The notes beneath the pieces were generated by a model that was not told the origin of the DNA, ran no database searches, and saw only the letters and a program-made list of their open reading frames with translations. A stretch of 36,767 nt of DNA, taken from assembly GCA_947304495.1 (NCBI GenBank), contig CAMZBG010000009.1, forward strand, positions 1-36,767, read 5' to 3'. The DNA comes from an uncultured Clostridia bacterium (GTDB lineage Bacteria; Bacillota_I; Bacilli_A; RF39; UBA660). The translations under genes were made by a program, and so were the position numbers. Positions 2,993 to 16,443 of this stretch are shown piece by piece; positions within the stretch are counted from its first letter, which is position 1, and each line of letters starts with the position of its first letter.

Positions 2993-4984
<1,992 letters not shown>

Positions 4985-4988
4985 TAAT

Positions 4989-6206
4989 ATGCATGAATTA
5001 TATAATAAATATGCTAGACTATTATTAGAAAGAGGACTTAGAATAAATAGACACGAACCATTAGTAATCAACGCTCCAATTGAAGCAATTGATTTTATTA
5101 GAGTACTTACTGAAGTGGCATTATCACTTGGAGTAGATAATATATACTATGATTGGTATGATGATGAACTAAAGCGTTTAGAATTGGACTATTTTGATGA
5201 AGAAGCAATTAAAAAGAGTTTGTTTTGGAATAAAGAAATACATGATGAGTATGCTAAAAAAGGAGGAGCTTTTCTCTTTTTGGTGGCAGCTAATCCAGGT
5301 ATTATGAGCAAAATAGATTCACAAAAGATTAAAACGGCTACAGCCCAGTCATTAAAGACAAGACAGGTATATCGTGAGATGCAAAGTAATAATACTGTCG
5401 ATTGGTGTATTGCTTCAGTAGCTACGGATACTTGGGGAAAATTATTATTTCCAGAAAGTAATAAACCAAAAGAAGAATTGTGGAATTTAATATTTGATAT
5501 TTGTTTAGTTAATGATGATGATCCCTTAAAAGCTTGGGATAATAAAATGAGGGAAAACAAGAATATATGTCAAAAATTAACTGATTTAAATATTAAAACA
5601 TTGCATTACATTAATAGTTTAGGTACTGATTTAGAAATAACTTTAGATGAAAAAGCAATTTGGTGTGGAGGCGCTAGTAAAATAAATGATATGGAATTAA
5701 TTGTCAATATGCCTACAGAAGAAGTATTTACTACACCAAATAAATTTAAGACAAATGGTATTGTCTATACATCGATGCCTTTAATTCATTCAGGAGTTAC
5801 AATAAATGATATTATGTTAGAATTCAAAGATGGTAAAGTTATTAATTATCAAGCCTCTAGTGGTATAGAAGAACTTAAAAATATTATTGAAACAGATGAT
5901 GAATCAATGATGTTGGGGGAAGTTGCTTTAGTAGATAAAAATAGTAAGATAGCTAAAGCTAATTTACTATTCTATGAAACATTATTTGATGAGAATGCTT
6001 CTTGTCATATTGCATTAGGTAGAGGATTTAAAGAATGCTTAAAAGATGGAGAAGAGTATACTTACGACGAATTAGAAGCAGTTGGATATAATAAATCCAA
6101 AAATCATGTCGATATGATGATAGGAACAAAAGATTTATCAATAATAGGAATAACTTATGATAATAAAGAAATAGAAATATTTAAAGATGGAAGTTTTGTA
6201 ATATAA
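4989..6206 (+). CDS. M29 family aminopeptidase (AmpS/PepS-like)
   Basis: The 405-aa protein matches the thermophilic-aminopeptidase (M29) family: cytosolic two-metal exopeptidases removing N-terminal residues from peptides. Visible family signatures are LVINAPIEAIDFIR near the start, NMPTEEVFTTP (metal-ligand glutamate), LGEVALVD (glutamate ligand), the FYETLFDENASCHIALGRG segment with a histidine ligand, and NHVDMMIGT near the C-terminus with the last histidine/aspartate ligands. The length is normal. It is transcribed with ligA, probably by position rather than shared function, and a terminator overlaps its stop codon. Confidence 0.93.
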   Translation: MHELYNKYARLLLERGLRINRHEPLVINAPIEAIDFIRVLTEVALSLGVDNIYYDWYDDELKRLELDYFDEEAIKKSLFWNKEIHDEYAKKGGAFLFLVAANPGIMSKIDSQKIKTATAQSLKTRQVYREMQSNNTVDWCIASVATDTWGKLLFPESNKPKEELWNLIFDICLVNDDDPLKAWDNKMRENKNICQKLTDLNIKTLHYINSLGTDLEITLDEKAIWCGGASKINDMELIVNMPTEEVFTTPNKFKTNGIVYTSMPLIHSGVTINDIMLEFKDGKVINYQASSGIEELKNIIETDDESMMLGEVALVDKNSKIAKANLLFYETLFDENASCHIALGRGFKECLKDGEEYTYDELEAVGYNKSKNHVDMMIGTKDLSIIGITYDNKEIEIFKDGSFVI

Positions 6207-6782: not shown

Positions 6783-6859
6783 GGCGAGATAGCTCAGTTG
6801 GCTAGAGCGATCGGTTCATACCCGATAGGTCGAGGGTTCGACCCCCCCTCTCGCTACCA
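6783..6859 (+). tRNA. tRNA-Met (CAT), elongator type
   Basis: A complete 77-nt cloverleaf. The acceptor stem GGCGAGA/TCTCGCT has a terminal G-U pair. The D arm is GCTC/GAGC, and the anticodon stem ATCGG/CCGAT carries loop TTCATAC (anticodon CAT at 6817-6819). The variable loop is AGGTC, the T loop TTCGACC, and CCA is encoded at 6857-6859. The lack of a C1-A72 mismatch excludes the initiator, and the layout closely resembles the elongator tRNA-Met of Bacillus, which also begins with a G-U acceptor pair. Oddity: position 50-64 of the T stem is an A-C mismatch beside a run of seven C. Confidence 0.95.
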
Positions 6860-6882
6860 ATATTGTAATTTACTCGAACTTA
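6855..6882 (+). repeat. tRNA 3'-flank copy, possible attachment-site half
   Basis: The tRNA 3' end and following bases (TACCAAT, 11-nt gap, CTCGAACTTA) recur at 9374-9400 (TACCAAT, 10-nt gap, CTCGAACTTA). tRNA 3' ends are the commonest integration sites for mobile elements. The match is short and imperfect, and no integrase gene is in the window. Confidence 0.35.
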
Positions 6883-6900
6883 ATTGTTCGAGTTTTATTT
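6873..6900 (+). terminator. intrinsic terminator after tRNA-Met
   Basis: CTCGAAC (6873-6879) pairs perfectly with GTTCGAG (6886-6892) around a TTAATT loop, and an interrupted T tract follows. Confidence 0.8.
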
Positions 6901-6994: not shown

Positions 6995-7696
6995 ATGGAA
7001 TATAATGTTTATTGTGATGAAAGTTGTCATCTAGTAAGCAATGACAGTAAGTATATGTTAATTGGAGCAGTTTATTGTCCAAAGTATAAAGTAAAAAAAG
7101 TAAATGAATATATAGAACATTTAAAGGAAAATTATAATCTTTCTGATAAAATAGAATTAAAATGGAATAAGATTGATAAAAAAACAGAAAAACTATATTT
7201 AGATATTATTAACTATTTTTTTAATAATGATGATTTAAAATTTAGAGTTATCGTAATCGATAAGACAAAATTAGATCATGAAAAATATAATCAGACTGAA
7301 AATGATTTTTATCATAAAGTATATTATGATATGTTAAAATATATTATTATTCCTGGTAATTCCTACAACATATATCCCGATATAAAAGATACAAATTCAT
7401 ATTATTATCATCAAGTAATGCTTGATTATTTAAGAATTAAAATGTCAGATACAAATAAAAAGACTATAAAAAAAGTTCAACCAATTCGATCTTATGAAGC
7501 ACCAATATTACAAATTAATGATATTTTGATTGGAGCATTATCATATTATTATAGGAATCTCTCTGGTAATAGTGTAAAACTAAATATTATTAATGAAATT
7601 AAAAAATTATATCAAAATGATTTCAATACTTCATCATATTATAGTAACACAAAATTTAATATATTTATTTGGAGATCAAGAGATGATACCTTTTAA
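6995..7696 (+). CDS. DUF3800 domain protein
   Basis: The 233-aa protein fits the DUF3800 family, predicted RNase H-like fold proteins often found in mobile elements and defence neighbourhoods. Family marks are the N-terminal strand YCDES (D8, E9), the IGAVY strand near residue 23, ELKWNKI (54-60), the acidic YPDIKDT (127-133), and QINDILIGALSYY (173-185) with the aspartate that usually completes the acidic site. The start follows a strong AAAAGGAGG ribosome site. Its last 14 nt overlap the next gene in another frame, so the two products are made together. No function is established for the family; a nuclease role is inference. Confidence 0.8.
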   Translation: MEYNVYCDESCHLVSNDSKYMLIGAVYCPKYKVKKVNEYIEHLKENYNLSDKIELKWNKIDKKTEKLYLDIINYFFNNDDLKFRVIVIDKTKLDHEKYNQTENDFYHKVYYDMLKYIIIPGNSYNIYPDIKDTNSYYYHQVMLDYLRIKMSDTNKKTIKKVQPIRSYEAPILQINDILIGALSYYYRNLSGNSVKLNIINEIKKLYQNDFNTSSYYSNTKFNIFIWRSRDDTF

Positions 7697-8195
7697 AAAT
7701 AAATGCGGTTTAAATGGACCATTAACTGAAACAACTACAGATGATGAATTATATGATTATTTTATAAAAAATATATATTATGGTGATTTAAAAATAAACG
7801 GAATGAAAATTAAAGTATTTACTACACCATTTGAAGATAATAGAATGCAAGGATTCTTTCATCTGACTACTAAAACACAGAAAAATTTTGGAATAAAAAT
7901 TAGAATGAAAGAACCTCGAGCATATTTTATAAATTATGTTGCTCCAATGATAAAAAATTATATAAATTGTTCTACTTGTGATGATTTAGGATGTAGTAAA
8001 ATAAAAATATGGACTGCCCCATATAAAAATACTAAAAGAACTAAACTATTGTATAGTGATGATTTATATAGTTATATAATAATACTTGAAAAGAATAAAA
8101 ATGATATGTATATAATTAGCTCATATTTAATTGATGAGCCAGGTTATTTAACGAATATATTAAAGGAATATAATAAATATAAAAAAGTCTCTTAA
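7683..8195 (+). CDS. putative BECR-fold (RelE/EndoU-like) nuclease or toxin
   Basis: The 170-aa soluble protein has no family I can name with certainty. The pattern MQGFFHLTTK (55-64), EPRAYFINYVAPMI (77-90), IKIWTAPYKNTKRTKLL (107-123), YIIILEK and YIISSYLIDEPG (143-154) resembles phage/plasmid nucleases of the barnase-EndoU-colicin-RelE class, where a histidine and basic residues cut RNA. Three cysteines (C96, C99, C104) cluster in the middle. I place the start at ATG 7683, preceded by GGAG at a good distance, rather than the in-frame ATG at 7593 inside the DUF3800 gene. Overlap with that gene implies coupling. The 3' end overlaps a convergent small RNA gene. Confidence 0.6.
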   Translation: MIPFKNKCGLNGPLTETTTDDELYDYFIKNIYYGDLKINGMKIKVFTTPFEDNRMQGFFHLTTKTQKNFGIKIRMKEPRAYFINYVAPMIKNYINCSTCDDLGCSKIKIWTAPYKNTKRTKLLYSDDLYSYIIILEKNKNDMYIISSYLIDEPGYLTNILKEYNKYKKVS

Positions 8196-8288
8196 GCAAA
8201 TTAAGAGGCTTTTCATTTTAGTATAAACGGATAACGCAACTAATAAAAGTTGCGTCTCCAGGACTCATATAACCCTTGGTCATTGAGT
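8181..8288 (-). ncRNA. candidate structured small RNA (~108 nt)
   Basis: On the minus strand a near-consensus promoter (8295-8323) predicts a start at A 8288. The RNA begins at once with an 11-bp hairpin (ACUCA-AUGACC, loop AAG, GGUUAU-A-UGAGU; one bulged A, one G-U). A second hairpin has the 8-bp stem ACGCAACU/AGUUGCGU (8235-8254 core), extended by GGA/UCC across a small internal loop. It ends with a terminator hairpin (8187-8209) and six U at 8181-8186. No open reading frame of note lies inside. Its 3' end is complementary to the end of the BECR-like mRNA. It matches no RNA family I can recognise. Confidence 0.65.
8187..8213. terminator. bidirectional intrinsic terminator
   Basis: GTCTCTTAA (8187-8195) pairs with TTAAGAGGC (8201-8209), 9 bp with one G-U. 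TTTT follows on the plus strand and six T (positions 8186-8181) on the minus strand. It ends both the DUF3800/nuclease mRNA and the convergent small RNA, and includes the nuclease stop codon. Confidence 0.8.
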
Positions 8289-8294
8289 AATTAA

Positions 8295-8323
8295 ATTGTA
8301 GCACATATTTTATTTAAAGTCAA
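8295..8323 (-). promoter_or_regulatory. promoter of the small RNA
   Basis: Read on the minus strand: TTGACT (8323-8318), a 17-nt spacer, then TACAAT (8300-8295). This is one of the best promoters in the window and has no protein gene downstream of it on that strand before the terminator, which is the main argument for a small RNA. Confidence 0.8.
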
Positions 8324-8390: not shown

Positions 8391-9206
8391 TTATCCCTTT
8401 TTCATTTCTGAAATTTTCTTATCAATTACTTGAACGTGTGATTGTTCATCGCTTTTCATTTTAGCATAAGCATATGCCATAGCATAAATTTCTTCATCAA
8501 CTTCTTGAGCATCCCAAGAGTACATCTCACTTTGCCCAATTCTGTTTCGTATAACATCTGTATAATGATACGTTCCATCTTCTGCAACGTATTTTAAATC
8601 ATGTTTATGTGCCATACTTGTAAATATTGCATCAATACTTTTTCCACTTGCTAATTCTTCGTTATATTGACCAGTTAATTCCAAAAATTCTTTTAATTGA
8701 TTTAATTCACAATTATGTTTTTGAACTTTGAATTTTTCATATAATTCTCCAATTGTAAACTTTCTATCATAATCATTTCTTTTTGCAATATAGTTTATAA
8801 AATCTAATAATACAATAGCACCATCATTAGCATCAAATTGTTCAGTACAATCATTCATATGATTATTTCTTAAAACAGATTCAACAATACCTTCATTAAA
8901 CATATAATATGCATAATGATTAACTATAGCAGTCAATAAACATTGTGCATCAACTTCTTTTTCGTGTTTTTTTGCGTCATATAAATCTTGTGTATACAAT
9001 GCAAAATCACAACCACCCCTTGATCCTAAATAATTTATAGCGTCAACCAATACAGCATCCCTTACTTTTTTGTCAATATCAGAAATAATTTTACGATTTT
9101 CTAATATATAATCTTTGGCATATTGAGTAAGGCAAAAACAAAGATGTGATGCCGAATAAGGTATTCTACCATTTTCACTTTGATATTCAACAAATTCTTT
9201 TCCCAT
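8391..9206 (-). CDS. unknown soluble protein, 271 aa
   Basis: I do not recognise this protein. It is mixed but mainly helical, with no signal peptide or membrane span. It contains cysteines near the start (LCFCLTQYAKDYI, 23-35) and in RGGCDFALYTQDLYD, and a helical C-terminal part (YSWDAQEVDEEIYAMAYAYA) ending in a lysine-rich tail. The start is supported by a GGAGGA ribosome site and by a strong promoter 30-55 nt upstream. It lies in the same orientation as the small RNA gene and upstream of it. Membership in the same accessory island as DUF3800 is inference from position. Confidence 0.75.
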   Translation of the reverse strand: MGKEFVEYQSENGRIPYSASHLCFCLTQYAKDYILENRKIISDIDKKVRDAVLVDAINYLGSRGGCDFALYTQDLYDAKKHEKEVDAQCLLTAIVNHYAYYMFNEGIVESVLRNNHMNDCTEQFDANDGAIVLLDFINYIAKRNDYDRKFTIGELYEKFKVQKHNCELNQLKEFLELTGQYNEELASGKSIDAIFTSMAHKHDLKYVAEDGTYHYTDVIRNRIGQSEMYSWDAQEVDEEIYAMAYAYAKMKSDEQSHVQVIDKKISEMKKG

Positions 9207-9373: not shown

Positions 9374-9400
9374 TACCAATTAGAATTTTGCTCGAACTTA
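9374..9400 (+). repeat. second copy of tRNA-Met 3' flank, possible attachment-site half
   Basis: TACCAAT then CTCGAACTTA ten bases later match the tRNA-Met 3' end and its terminator arm at 6855-6882. The following bases (TAGTTTGGGTTT) look like a decayed second arm of the same terminator. No tRNA body precedes it. Confidence 0.35.
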
Positions 9401-9419
9401 TAGTTTGGGTTTAATAAAT

Positions 9420-12997: not shown

Positions 12998-14749
12998 ATG
13001 AATAAGAACATAAATAAGGTAATTAAAAGATTACCAAAGAAGATTGTGGCTTTTACAATGGTTTTAGCAATGGTATTTACTTATTTCTTGCCATTAACTG
13101 AAGTATTAGCTAACAATACTTATGGTGAAGGTGATTATTCAATTAATTTAGATATAACGAATGAGTTAGGTTTCACCATAAACAGTGTAACTATCAATAG
13201 TTCTCCTTGGACTACACACTTGGATGAATATCATTCTGATAATAACCAGTTTCATATTATAGTTAATGTTTCTGGCAATGAATCGACAGGTGATAAGATT
13301 CCTAAATTTTATTGGGGAGGAAATTGGAACGGTGAAGATGGTACAGTTACAAGTAGCCGTCATACTGAAGAAGGTGGATACGAATTTGCGGTTGATGTAA
13401 CAATTAACGGTTCAACTAAATTCGTAGGTTTAACGCTTGGAGAACAAGGTGAAGAAGCAGGACCAGAACCAGGAGAAGGATACTTCGATGGTAAAGCATA
13501 TGTATTATGGTCTTGTGGTAATGGTGTATGCTATCATTATTTTGACAATATACCAGATTTTAATGATGGAAATAGTACGTTATATAAGGATACAACAGTT
13601 ACTGCTGATAATAAACCTGGGGCAACATTTGATGTTCATGCAGACTATATTGGATGGTATTTAGCTTCAGAATTTAATGATTGGCAAGAATTGTATGAAC
13701 TTGTAACAGGTGAAGAAGTTGATTGGAATACCTTAGATCCAGAATTAATATTAGGTGAACCTAATCAACACATTGGTGAATTAGAAAATGCCGCAGTAAG
13801 TAGTAATGCTTGTACAAGGCCTGAAAATAATTCTCCTAGAGAAGAGAGAGAAGCTTTTGAAAGATGTATCAATAGATATGCGGCAGAACATAACCACGAG
13901 ATATGGACACATAAATTGCAACCTGTTGGAGAACCAACAGCCAATAATGCATATGTATCTTATGGCGATAGAAATTTTAAAGTAGTTATCTATAATAGCG
14001 AATATAAGGGTATTGCAATGGGTGATTTATCTGAATTAAGTTATTATCCATCTCATTGGACTGATCCATTTATAAAAAGAGATCATTTTGATCTTTCAGG
14101 AACTACTAGAAATAAACCAGCATTATTAGATTCAATATTACTTGAAAGTACAGTAGTGATTAAAGAATTAAATTATAATTCATTTAAGATTGCTTCAATT
14201 GAAGCGTTGGATGTTCCAGATACAGCTGTTGCAATTAATAAGGTAAACGGCGAATTTAGATTAGTATTTTCATCTAATTTCTATGATAATGTAACATTCA
14301 AAGTTACCGATACCAATGGTGAAGTATCTTATATGTTAATTAAAAGATATACCATAGATGGTTGGATTAGACATGATGGAGATAGAGCAATATTGACAGC
14401 TGATTTCTATTTTGATAATGAAAAATCTTATCACGATTTTGAGCTTACAGCTAAAATAGTCCATAAAAATGGAACAACAAGAAATGTTAGATTAACGGCT
14501 GTAAATAGGATTGATGATGGATTAGGCAATATAACGAATGACTATGAGGTTGATGAAGCAACCCGTGGTGGTAAAGGACTTAAGAAAGCAGTATTTGAAG
14601 TTAATCTAGATGATGGTGAAGAAGAAACAATTCAAGATATTTATTTGAATGCTGAATATGAAGGAAGTACAGAATCAAATTATGCTGGGGCATATGTTGG
14701 TTCTGGCGAAGGTGTCCTTGCCAATATTTATCATGGGGAGGGCGAATAA
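12998..14749 (+). CDS. large secreted surface protein
   Basis: The 583-aa protein has a classic Gram-positive signal peptide: basic MNKNINKVIKRLPKK, a hydrophobic core (16-33) and likely cleavage after VLA (38). The mature part is strand-rich and acidic, with no anchor motif at the C-terminus. A proline/glycine/glutamate linker (EEAGPEPGEG, about 151-160) precedes a segment with CGNGVC, and two further cysteines follow, so two disulfides are possible outside the cell. I know no family for it. The start follows a TAGGAG site, with an extended -10 TGCTATTAT near 12967. The next surface gene begins one base after its stop, so the two products probably act together. Confidence 0.82.
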   Translation: MNKNINKVIKRLPKKIVAFTMVLAMVFTYFLPLTEVLANNTYGEGDYSINLDITNELGFTINSVTINSSPWTTHLDEYHSDNNQFHIIVNVSGNESTGDKIPKFYWGGNWNGEDGTVTSSRHTEEGGYEFAVDVTINGSTKFVGLTLGEQGEEAGPEPGEGYFDGKAYVLWSCGNGVCYHYFDNIPDFNDGNSTLYKDTTVTADNKPGATFDVHADYIGWYLASEFNDWQELYELVTGEEVDWNTLDPELILGEPNQHIGELENAAVSSNACTRPENNSPREEREAFERCINRYAAEHNHEIWTHKLQPVGEPTANNAYVSYGDRNFKVVIYNSEYKGIAMGDLSELSYYPSHWTDPFIKRDHFDLSGTTRNKPALLDSILLESTVVIKELNYNSFKIASIEALDVPDTAVAINKVNGEFRLVFSSNFYDNVTFKVTDTNGEVSYMLIKRYTIDGWIRHDGDRAILTADFYFDNEKSYHDFELTAKIVHKNGTTRNVRLTAVNRIDDGLGNITNDYEVDEATRGGKGLKKAVFEVNLDDGEEETIQDIYLNAEYEGSTESNYAGAYVGSGEGVLANIYHGEGE

Positions 14750-14750
14750 T

Positions 14751-16076
14751 ATGAAGAAAAATTATTTATATGTTTTAGCTTTATTATTATTGATACCTTT
14801 TAGTGTATATGCGGCAGTAAATGCTAATGTAGTAACTTTAAATGCTACAGTTGATGGAAATGTAATTGGCTTTGAAGGTACAACTGAAGGTGGTTCAACC
14901 GCAGTTATGTGTAAGCTATATGATTCAGAAAATGAAATAATTACTATGTTGTCATTGGCTGTTAACGAAAATGAATTTAATGGCATTTTTCCAGTAACAG
15001 AGAATGGTACATATAAAATAACTTGTGCTAACTATGAAGGCGGAACTATAGTTAGTAAAAGTGTTACCGTAGCTGCTGATGTAGAAGAACATACAGTAAC
15101 ATTTAATACTGATGGTGGAAGCAATGTAGCAGATCAAAAAGTGGAAAATGGATTAAAAGCAACAAGACCGGAAGCTCCTACTAAAGACGGATATGACTTT
15201 GATGATTGGTATGAAGATGCTACATTTACTACTTTATTTGATTTTAATGAACCAATAACTGAAGATGTAACTATTTATGCAAAATGGAATGAGAAACCTG
15301 TTGAAAAGATTACGGTCTCATTTAATACAAATGGTGGTAATGAAATAGAACCAATAGAAATAGAAGTAAATGAAAAAATTCAACCACCAGAAGTGCCTAC
15401 TAAAGAAGGATATACTTTTGATGATTGGTATGAAGATGCCACGTTTACGACAAGGTTTGATTTCGATGCACCTATTACTGAGAATATAATATTATATGCT
15501 AATTGGATAGATAATTTAGCTAATTATACAGTATCTGATGATAATGGAAATTTAGTTGTATTCAAAGATGAACCTGAACATGAATTCCATCTTAATATTT
15601 TTGACTTTTCTTCATTAACAGATGAAGAATTAGAAGAACTAGAAATAAGTAGAGAAGAATATGATCAAGTATTTGATATAATCATAGATGCAACTAAAGA
15701 TAAAGGTGATTTATTAGCATTTTATGAAATTATTGTAACTGATGAAAATGATTCAGAATTGACTGAAACTCTTGGTGGAAATATTAAAATCAAGATTAAA
15801 TTAACTGAAGAAATGAAAAAATATAACAAATTTAGATTGATATATTTTAAAGATGATTTTACTACTGAAAAGCCTATAGAATTGAAAGTTGAGGGTGACT
15901 ACTTAGTTGGTGAATTAGAACATTTAAGTAACTATGCGTTAGTAGGTAGTGTTGTCGAAAATTCTTCAAATCCTAAGACAAACGATAATATTAATATATG
16001 GATTGGTATGTTTATTATATCAGCTTTAGGTTTAGCATTTTCAGCTTTTATGAGTTTTAAAAAGAAAAATTATTAA
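14751..16076 (+). CDS. wall-anchored surface protein with two Listeria-Bacteroides repeats
   Basis: The 441-aa protein has a signal peptide (MKKNYLYVLALLLLIPFSVYA, 1-21), a first domain (about 25-110), and two tandem Listeria-Bacteroides (Flg_new type) repeats at 114-179 and 187-252. Both repeats contain FDDWYEDATFTT and end in AKW/ANW. A further domain leads to the sorting signal NPKTN (407-411), a hydrophobic span and a KKKNY tail, consistent with sortase attachment. ATG 14751 is chosen over an upstream in-frame ATG because GGGGAGGG sits just before it and the signal peptide begins there. It is one base from the preceding secreted-protein gene. The role, perhaps adhesion, is inference. Confidence 0.9.
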   Translation: MKKNYLYVLALLLLIPFSVYAAVNANVVTLNATVDGNVIGFEGTTEGGSTAVMCKLYDSENEIITMLSLAVNENEFNGIFPVTENGTYKITCANYEGGTIVSKSVTVAADVEEHTVTFNTDGGSNVADQKVENGLKATRPEAPTKDGYDFDDWYEDATFTTLFDFNEPITEDVTIYAKWNEKPVEKITVSFNTNGGNEIEPIEIEVNEKIQPPEVPTKEGYTFDDWYEDATFTTRFDFDAPITENIILYANWIDNLANYTVSDDNGNLVVFKDEPEHEFHLNIFDFSSLTDEELEELEISREEYDQVFDIIIDATKDKGDLLAFYEIIVTDENDSELTETLGGNIKIKIKLTEEMKKYNKFRLIYFKDDFTTEKPIELKVEGDYLVGELEHLSNYALVGSVVENSSNPKTNDNINIWIGMFIISALGLAFSAFMSFKKKNY

Positions 16077-16092
16077 AATTATAAGGCAATAT

Positions 16093-16443
16093 ATGAAATA
16101 TAGAAGAATAAATAAAAAGAATGTAATATTATGTATAGTATTAATTATTGGAATAATATTAGTAATGTTAGGAATATTTAAAGTAATTAATTCTAAAAAT
16201 AAACTTATTGGTTCATGGACAACAGATGGTGTTACTGTCTACGAATTTAATAAGAATGGGAAAGGAAAATTAATTCTTCCACTAGCAGAGTATGAATTTA
16301 ATTATAAAACTAAAAGCAATAAGCTTTCAATTGATTTTATAAATGATAAGTCTGAAGATTCAGATTATACATACTCATTTAAAATGAAGAAACTTGTACT
16401 AGAGGGAGAAAAAGGAGTATTTATATTTAGTAAAAAAAACTAG
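16093..16443 (+). CDS. small membrane-anchored protein, DUF5640-like
   Basis: The 116-aa protein has one N-terminal membrane segment (about 11-30) and an extracytoplasmic strand-rich domain: LIGSWTTDGVTVYEFNKNG followed by GKGKLILPLAEYEFNY. This is the layout of small lipocalin-like DUF5640/DUF4923-type domains of Bacillota, whose function is unknown. There is no lipobox cysteine, so it is held by the uncleaved helix. The ribosome site is weak (AAGGC). Position suggests it is transcribed with the two surface genes before it and ends at a shared bidirectional terminator. Confidence 0.75.
   Translation: MKYRRINKKNVILCIVLIIGIILVMLGIFKVINSKNKLIGSWTTDGVTVYEFNKNGKGKLILPLAEYEFNYKTKSNKLSIDFINDKSEDSDYTYSFKMKKLVLEGEKGVFIFSKKN

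Follow-up and report, generated by a model that had tools for sequence, protein, structure and literature searches.

A structured small RNA, preceded by a promoter of its own, beside rlfA-rlfB-like genes of uncultured Bacilli and phages: a candidate RNA antitoxin with stand-alone phage copies

The sequence studied here (hereafter the window) is a stretch of 36,767 nucleotides (nt) from an uncultured Clostridia bacterium (contig CAMZBG010000009.1 of assembly GCA_947304495.1). Positions 8181..8288 on its minus strand correspond to a predicted structured small RNA of about 108 nt with its own promoter, convergent to a pair of genes whose products are homologous to RlfA and RlfB of phage P1. The RNA, which adjoins such a pair both in P1 and in bacteria of the gut, is conserved in sequence and structure and is linked to rlfAB; it is found in loci where the proteins are lost, and it occurs in phages as stand-alone copies. 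Among the roles suggested in an earlier note on this DNA (a regulator, an RNA antitoxin or part of an effector), the RNA antitoxin is favoured by two observations, asymmetric loss and the presence of stand-alone copies in phages. Whether the RNA restrains RlfAB in this manner, with the stand-alone phage copies serving as decoys, is in our judgement evenly balanced.

The earlier note had described a minus-strand promoter, TTGACT-17 nt-TACAAT, followed by an RNA starting at the base of an 11-bp hairpin and continuing into a second hairpin and a terminator. The promoter was present as described, and the structure was reproduced by folding. The -35 box (TTGACT, 8318..8323) and the -10 box (TACAAT, 8295..8300), recognised by promoter search and comparison of RNA starts, are separated by a 17-nt spacer in which TG precedes the -10 box, and the start at 8288 lies 6 nt past that box. 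The predicted fold of 8288-8181 consists of an 11-pair hairpin from nucleotide 1 (hairpin 1, 8263..8288), with a near-constant CUC/GAG base and an inner stem covarying between subfamilies; a 13-pair hairpin 2 (UGGAGACG...CGUUAUCCG, 8228..8260), to which both fold and covariation point; and a terminator hairpin (8182..8214, U run 8181-8186) overlapping the end of the convergent gene, all on the minus strand. Its energy was -35.2 kcal/mol (z -5.64) and none of 200 shuffles was equally stable, but this z alone is no proof because the terminator, which is shared with the convergent gene, adds to it. Promoter matches are also not rare locally, with 33 sites against 27.4 expected from shuffles of 2.9 kilobases (kb). 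A -35/-10 promoter pair with at least 9 of 12 matches stood at the right distance from 26 of 33 RNA starts (many of them from close relatives), compared with 2.9% of random positions, and it is this, together with the recurrence of the core, that settles the reality of the small RNA. The seven starts failing were L004, L042, L043, L044, L062, L090 and L094. L062 and L090, both of subfamily C, have no promoter at the usual distance; one further upstream would mean a longer 5' leader. A short open reading frame (ORF) over hairpin 1 was rejected, as relatives differ at codon positions 1 and 2 and no ribosome site was seen by eye.

Exact matches to a 20-mer of hairpin 1 were found in 15 other genomic loci, from genomes of uncultured Bacilli and relatives, and a core of 66-67 nt recurs in 15 other genomes. 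All 15 exact-match loci had a similar promoter-core-terminator layout and, behind the RNA, the same gene, in whole or at least as a C-terminal piece. Invariance of the 20-mer itself is uninformative because the loci were selected by it; the core outside it was nearly as constant in the 16 loci. An RNA model built from these 16 (R1, window included) detected 23 positive genomes among 385 of the order, each with one copy. A second model, R2, was built from 10 RNAs of subfamily A and 3 of subfamily C, and in a class-wide sample of 395 genomes it gave four matches at an expectation value (E) of 0.001: G034 and G582, which are training loci; G057, outside the training set, an orphan RNA between phage portal and head genes; and G411 (L128, E 9e-4), judged false for lack of CUC/GAG.

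The RNA belongs to its neighbouring gene pair, and the convergence with a DUF3800/nuclease-like pair reported in the earlier note was confirmed. The first gene (6995..7696, plus strand) encodes an RlfA-like DUF3800 protein with a predicted RNase HII-like fold and overlaps the start of the second (7683..8195, plus strand), which encodes an RlfB-like protein of 170 amino acids (aa); the listed ORF start of the latter, 7593, was too far upstream as judged against 170-aa homologues. The RlfB-like protein matched 111 database proteins at E up to 0.001 and no Pfam family. Its model weakly resembles RelE/HigB/BrnT toxins, and in a viral library its fold matched the uncharacterised Siphoviridae protein A0A8S5VG57 (E 4.7e-8). 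Sequence searches of solved structures gave no match for RlfB and two for RlfA (E 0.25 and 0.53).

RlfB-like matches occurred in 25 of the 385 genomes, 17 intact and 8 broken. Nineteen of these genomes are among the 23 positive for R1, with the RNA adjoining; the other six proteins share 30-45% identity, and an RNA of the same architecture was recognised by eye in the same convergent place (two of these loci, L060 and L062, were later used to build R2). Therefore, each of the 25 RlfB genes or remnants has the RNA next to it. The reverse does not apply: G034, G110, G171 and G238 have the RNA without an RlfB match, while among the 25 no intact RlfB beside DUF3800 lacked the RNA. In L070, L078 and L080 a common internal deletion, which runs from residue 30 of RlfA to residue 139 of RlfB, fuses the first 30 RlfA residues to RlfB 139-169 and leaves the RNA whole. 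In the class-wide sample the RlfB profile matched 5 of 395 genomes, and R2 at E 0.001 found the RNA at one of them; of the remaining loci, G178 belongs to subfamily B, G409 shows the motif by eye (R2 E 3.9) and G674 matches R2 at E 0.0068, and in G012 neither DUF3800 nor the RNA was seen. L092 has an RlfB-like protein with no DUF3800 match, and no RNA was seen in the 450 nt examined.

The stem preservation check suggested in the earlier note was carried out, and the changes between subfamilies were mostly compensatory. The rows of the alignments were hand-picked, and L091, misplaced by MAFFT, was excluded. Within subfamily A, 4 of 24 pairs had changes on both sides (21 distinct rows). With subfamily C added, this was the case for 5 of 22 pairs against 2.2 in shuffles (reached by 4 of 500), and 97.2% of cells were paired against 91.5%. 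For hairpin 1 across subfamilies (14 distinct rows), the share of paired cells (92.9% against 74.4%) and the number of cells with both-side changes (21 against 7.6) exceeded all 500 shuffles, whereas the number of pairs with such changes (5 of 9) was reached by 182 of 500. The stem changes amount to few events, since they are concentrated on few branches. CUC and GAG were constant in 19 aligned rows; L106 and L113 have UUC in place of CUC, L113 with a matching change. In the second copy of phage L143 the inner stem UGUAC/GUACA compensates relative to UCUAC/GUAGA.

Phages carry the RNA both with and without the proteins. In P1 an unannotated RNA (R2 E 0.0033) is convergent to rlfB, and the P1 proteins are homologous to those studied here (hidden Markov model E 4e-93 for RlfA and 3e-29 for RlfB); the P1 record notes rlfA and rlfB as possibly associated with lytic replication. 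Bifidobacterium phage Bbif-1 carries the RNA (R2 E 1.8e-4, outside training) together with a DUF3800 gene annotated as RlfA phagic protein and an RlfB-like ORF that lacks annotation (22% identity). For phi3T and Vibrio phage 1.084.O, the RNA was present and no RlfAB was found in the 3-4 kb fetched. A P1-like RNA occurred in 168 of 5426 complete E. coli genomes, with 80% or more of the query covered in 121, and the one chromosomal copy examined had no RlfAB within 2.5 kb. The RNA sequence differs between subfamilies, and when the window RNA was compared with phages and plasmids by BLASTN, all matches were short and weak (E at least 0.02) and were read as chance. The window RlfB matched none in plasmids and only Bbif-1 among phages, and a viral scan with an RlfB alignment gave 89 pattern stretches, none confirmed.

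A scan of viral contigs yielded 35 contigs by 20 fixed bases of hairpin 1 and one by a second pattern, and a control scan with permuted stems yielded none. The 36 contigs represent 30 distinct loci, 27 of them distinct stand-alone copies: RlfAB was present in the fetched stretch of 3 of the 36 contigs and absent from that of 33, although, as the stretches span 1.4-15 kb, these phages may have RlfAB elsewhere. Eleven of the 27 lie within 500 nt of a same-strand transfer RNA (tRNA) gene, compared with 8.35% of positions drawn at random from those stretches. R2 matched 37 of 40 sources (the 36 contigs, P1, phi3T, a Vibrio phage and one E. coli stretch) at E 2e-8 to 0.28, none of them in training; these phage matches are not independent of the pattern, because the loci were picked by hairpin 1. 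L137, L157 and L168 were missed, and in L143 the second copy alone was detected. L143 (3091-3211) and L159 (13027-13275) each have two RNA copies in tandem, with differing inner stems. Among annotated phages, 25 records with Bacillus, Escherichia, Vibrio and other names matched one phage copy at E up to 1.

The small RNA adjoins the same type of gene as the DUF3800 RNAs of Rfam, which include at least DUF3800-I, -VII and -IX, yet it is distinct from them. These motifs are said to come from Weinberg et al. 2017. No Rfam family reached its gathering score on the small RNA in the window; with E up to 10 the window RNA had five matches, the best being RefA9 on the opposite strand (E 0.071, below gathering score). 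Nor did any Rfam family match it in the other loci scanned; the DUF3800 covariance models in particular gave no match at gathering score on the small RNA in the window, its relatives or 20 scanned phage loci. This agrees with the earlier note, whose author could name no family for the RNA. Among the papers found on DUF3800, PBECR, RNA antitoxins and rlfA/rlfB, no title or abstract dealt with this RNA, which may yet correspond to a published motif that Rfam lacks.

In the reading we prefer, the small RNA would join RlfA and RlfB as the third component of a mobile cassette. The RNase HII-like fold of RlfA and the weak RelE/HigB/BrnT resemblance of RlfB suggest that the pair probably cleaves RNA; it may also be toxic. 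The RNA would be transcribed from its own promoter, form two hairpins and, by analogy with RNA antitoxins, most likely bind one or both proteins and hold them inactive; phages and orphan loci with the RNA alone would neutralise RlfAB met in a host. An antitoxin with phage mimics fits because of the asymmetry of loss, the own promoter, the nuclease-like partners and the stand-alone phage copies, twice paired. A wider proposal is more tentative: that bacteria, prophages and P1 share a new kind of RNA-restrained two-nuclease defence, to which the stand-alone phage RNA, often in tRNA arrays, would be a counter-defence decoy.

Several points weigh against this reading. Protein genes outpace a short RNA in decay for trivial reasons. 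Core identity to the nearest intact locus averaged 0.93 in 13 broken or orphan loci (0.84 upstream, 0.83 downstream) and 0.98 in 16 intact loci (0.95 and 0.86); the core outlasts its flanks in both sets, yet it is kept less well once the proteins are broken, and the orphan RNAs L042-L044 are decayed. The structural match of RlfB is below the reliability level of the structure tool itself. Neither for the P1 RNA nor for E. coli copy L168 does the predicted best fold form the CUC/GAG base of hairpin 1, and the best fold also differs in some phage RNAs. The P1 genes rlfA and rlfB were both scored non-essential (NE) in a table of a CRISPR interference study (PMC10695390), each accompanied by a further figure (0.061 for rlfA, 0.030 for rlfB). 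Finally, another RNA is common at DUF3800 loci that lack RlfB, so RlfA could be the real partner and the RNA could play an active part.

This last point leads to the main rival, in which the RNA would serve the RNase HII-like protein. An RlfA ribonucleoprotein would require it as cofactor or guide, RlfB would be an accessory nuclease, and the stand-alone copies would be relics or used in trans; we regard this model as unlikely, though it deserves serious attention. DUF3800 was present in 135 of the 385 genomes, and among the best 30 DUF3800 loci an RlfB-like ORF occurred at 8. R2 (E up to 1) matched 6 of the 30, all among these 8 (L107 and L115 from the training set; L106, L113, L120 and L121 outside it, the last two identical in RNA), and the other two belong to subfamily B, with the RNA recognised by eye. 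Of the 22 loci without RlfB, 10 had the unrelated DUF3800-VII RNA; none of the 8 with RlfB did. Where the FLSHclust paper (PMC10910872) touches on DUF3800, it describes an RNase H fold beside putative non-coding RNAs, also with Cas12a2, and subfamily A shows very little variation in the core. A guide, however, should have a variable segment and none is seen in this near-constant core; protein-less RNA is moreover frequent, and a lone guide should be useless. The other 12 loci without RlfB (L099, L100, L103, L105, L109, L111, L114, L117, L119, L122, L123 and L124) have no Rfam DUF3800 RNA and may hold further unlisted RNAs. In G034 (L038:1680-1779) a DUF3800-VII RNA directly adjoins an orphan copy of the small RNA, with a tRNA gene alongside and no RlfA or RlfB match within the 10 kb fetched (L068). 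An Rfam ssNA-helicase RNA lies near the RlfAB cassette of L120 (3261-3310).

It is quite improbable that the RNAs carried alone by phages serve some purpose of their own, such as one within tRNA arrays, and that RlfAB loci merely borrowed them. Their proximity to tRNA genes and the 25 annotated phage records would agree with this, but the RNA adjoins rlfB in hosts as distant as Bacilli, the Bifidobacterium phage and P1, so that the borrowing would need repeating. Less probable again is a type I-like antisense regulator of rlfA or rlfB mRNA, acting by overlap or base pairing. The small RNA is convergent with an overlapping terminator, and in a test of the start regions at 7 loci (rough two-base-block shuffle) the duplex with the rlfA start was below the shuffle mean at five (z -2.36 in the window, then -1.33, -1.5, -1.15 and -1.41), which also counts to some degree against the antitoxin reading. 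The remaining two gave z +0.17 and +1.22, however, and at the rlfB start the seven tests ranged from -1.97 to +0.74 with no trend. In addition, the RNA and rlfB of L091 share a strand, and no such target lies near the copies that phages carry alone. A chance promoter and hairpins between convergent genes can practically be dismissed in view of the conservation, covariation and phage copies, common as single promoter matches are here.

The cassette seems to be a mobile islet linked to tRNA genes. A tRNA-Met(cat) gene upstream (6783..6859, plus strand) is a likely integration hot spot, and such a gene stood upstream of the cassette in 13 of 36 loci. Fragments from the 3' end of tRNA-Met recur around the cassettes of L081, L072 and L006, and weakly in the window, where a 77% repeat of the tRNA 3' flank (6855-6898) at 9374..9415 (plus strand; E 0.015 within the window) could be the right end of the islet. 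The L081 repeats (126-170, 3491-3535 and 5385-5429) flank the cassette and a neighbouring unit, as in tRNA-linked islets, and no integrase gene was seen among the L081 ORFs. The surroundings of the cassette vary: when 11 window proteins were sought near the cassette at 35 other loci, one weak 28% ligase-like piece was found. RlfA as a transposase was rejected, as all 23 genomes have one RNA each and the repeats are tRNA 3' ends. A 271-aa gene (8391-9206) was rejected as a partner, since none of the stretches from the 15 loci initially found besides the window contains it; its product belongs to a family of 101 database proteins without a Pfam or PHROG family, and the gene lies within that tRNA islet. 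The gene content of the window is chromosomal (rpoA, L17, DNA ligase), and at 14649-16443 the window carries a gene for a Listeria-Bacteroides repeat protein followed by one for a DUF5640 protein.

The linkage described here ties DUF3800 proteins to their neighbouring RNAs, and the antitoxin reading predicts that small RNAs lying in tRNA clusters of phages are counter-defence decoys. As with the small RNA, DUF3800-VII RNA (RF02967) and the other DUF3800 RNAs of Rfam are small structured RNAs adjoining a DUF3800 gene, an adjacency that the stand-alone phage copies lack, but DUF3800-VII has another sequence and a multi-branched fold. The c4 antisense RNA is likewise a small RNA of P1, and it is a separate P1 gene (P1_gr044); Rfam C4 had no match in the scanned loci, P1 itself being outside that scan. 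The antitoxins of type III toxin-antitoxin systems are upstream repeats in the toxin operon. ToxIN and CptIN resemble the present system in having an RNA beside an RNase-like protein and in the RNA mimics of phages, putative in the present case; the small RNA, unlike theirs, has its own promoter, is convergent, is present in one copy per cassette and accompanies two proteins, of which the RlfB model is nearest to RelE/HigB/BrnT. The upstream tandem-repeat layout is not seen here, two copies occurring only in phages L143 and L159. For the phage RNA mimics, a passage of PMC5086642 offers a precedent in the pseudo-ToxI of phage TE. In P1 the order is the same as in the window, an RlfA (DUF3800) homologue followed by an RlfB homologue with the same RNA convergent to rlfB, and the predicted best fold differs in hairpin 1; with this RNA, two unexplained genes of a classic phage gain an RNA partner.
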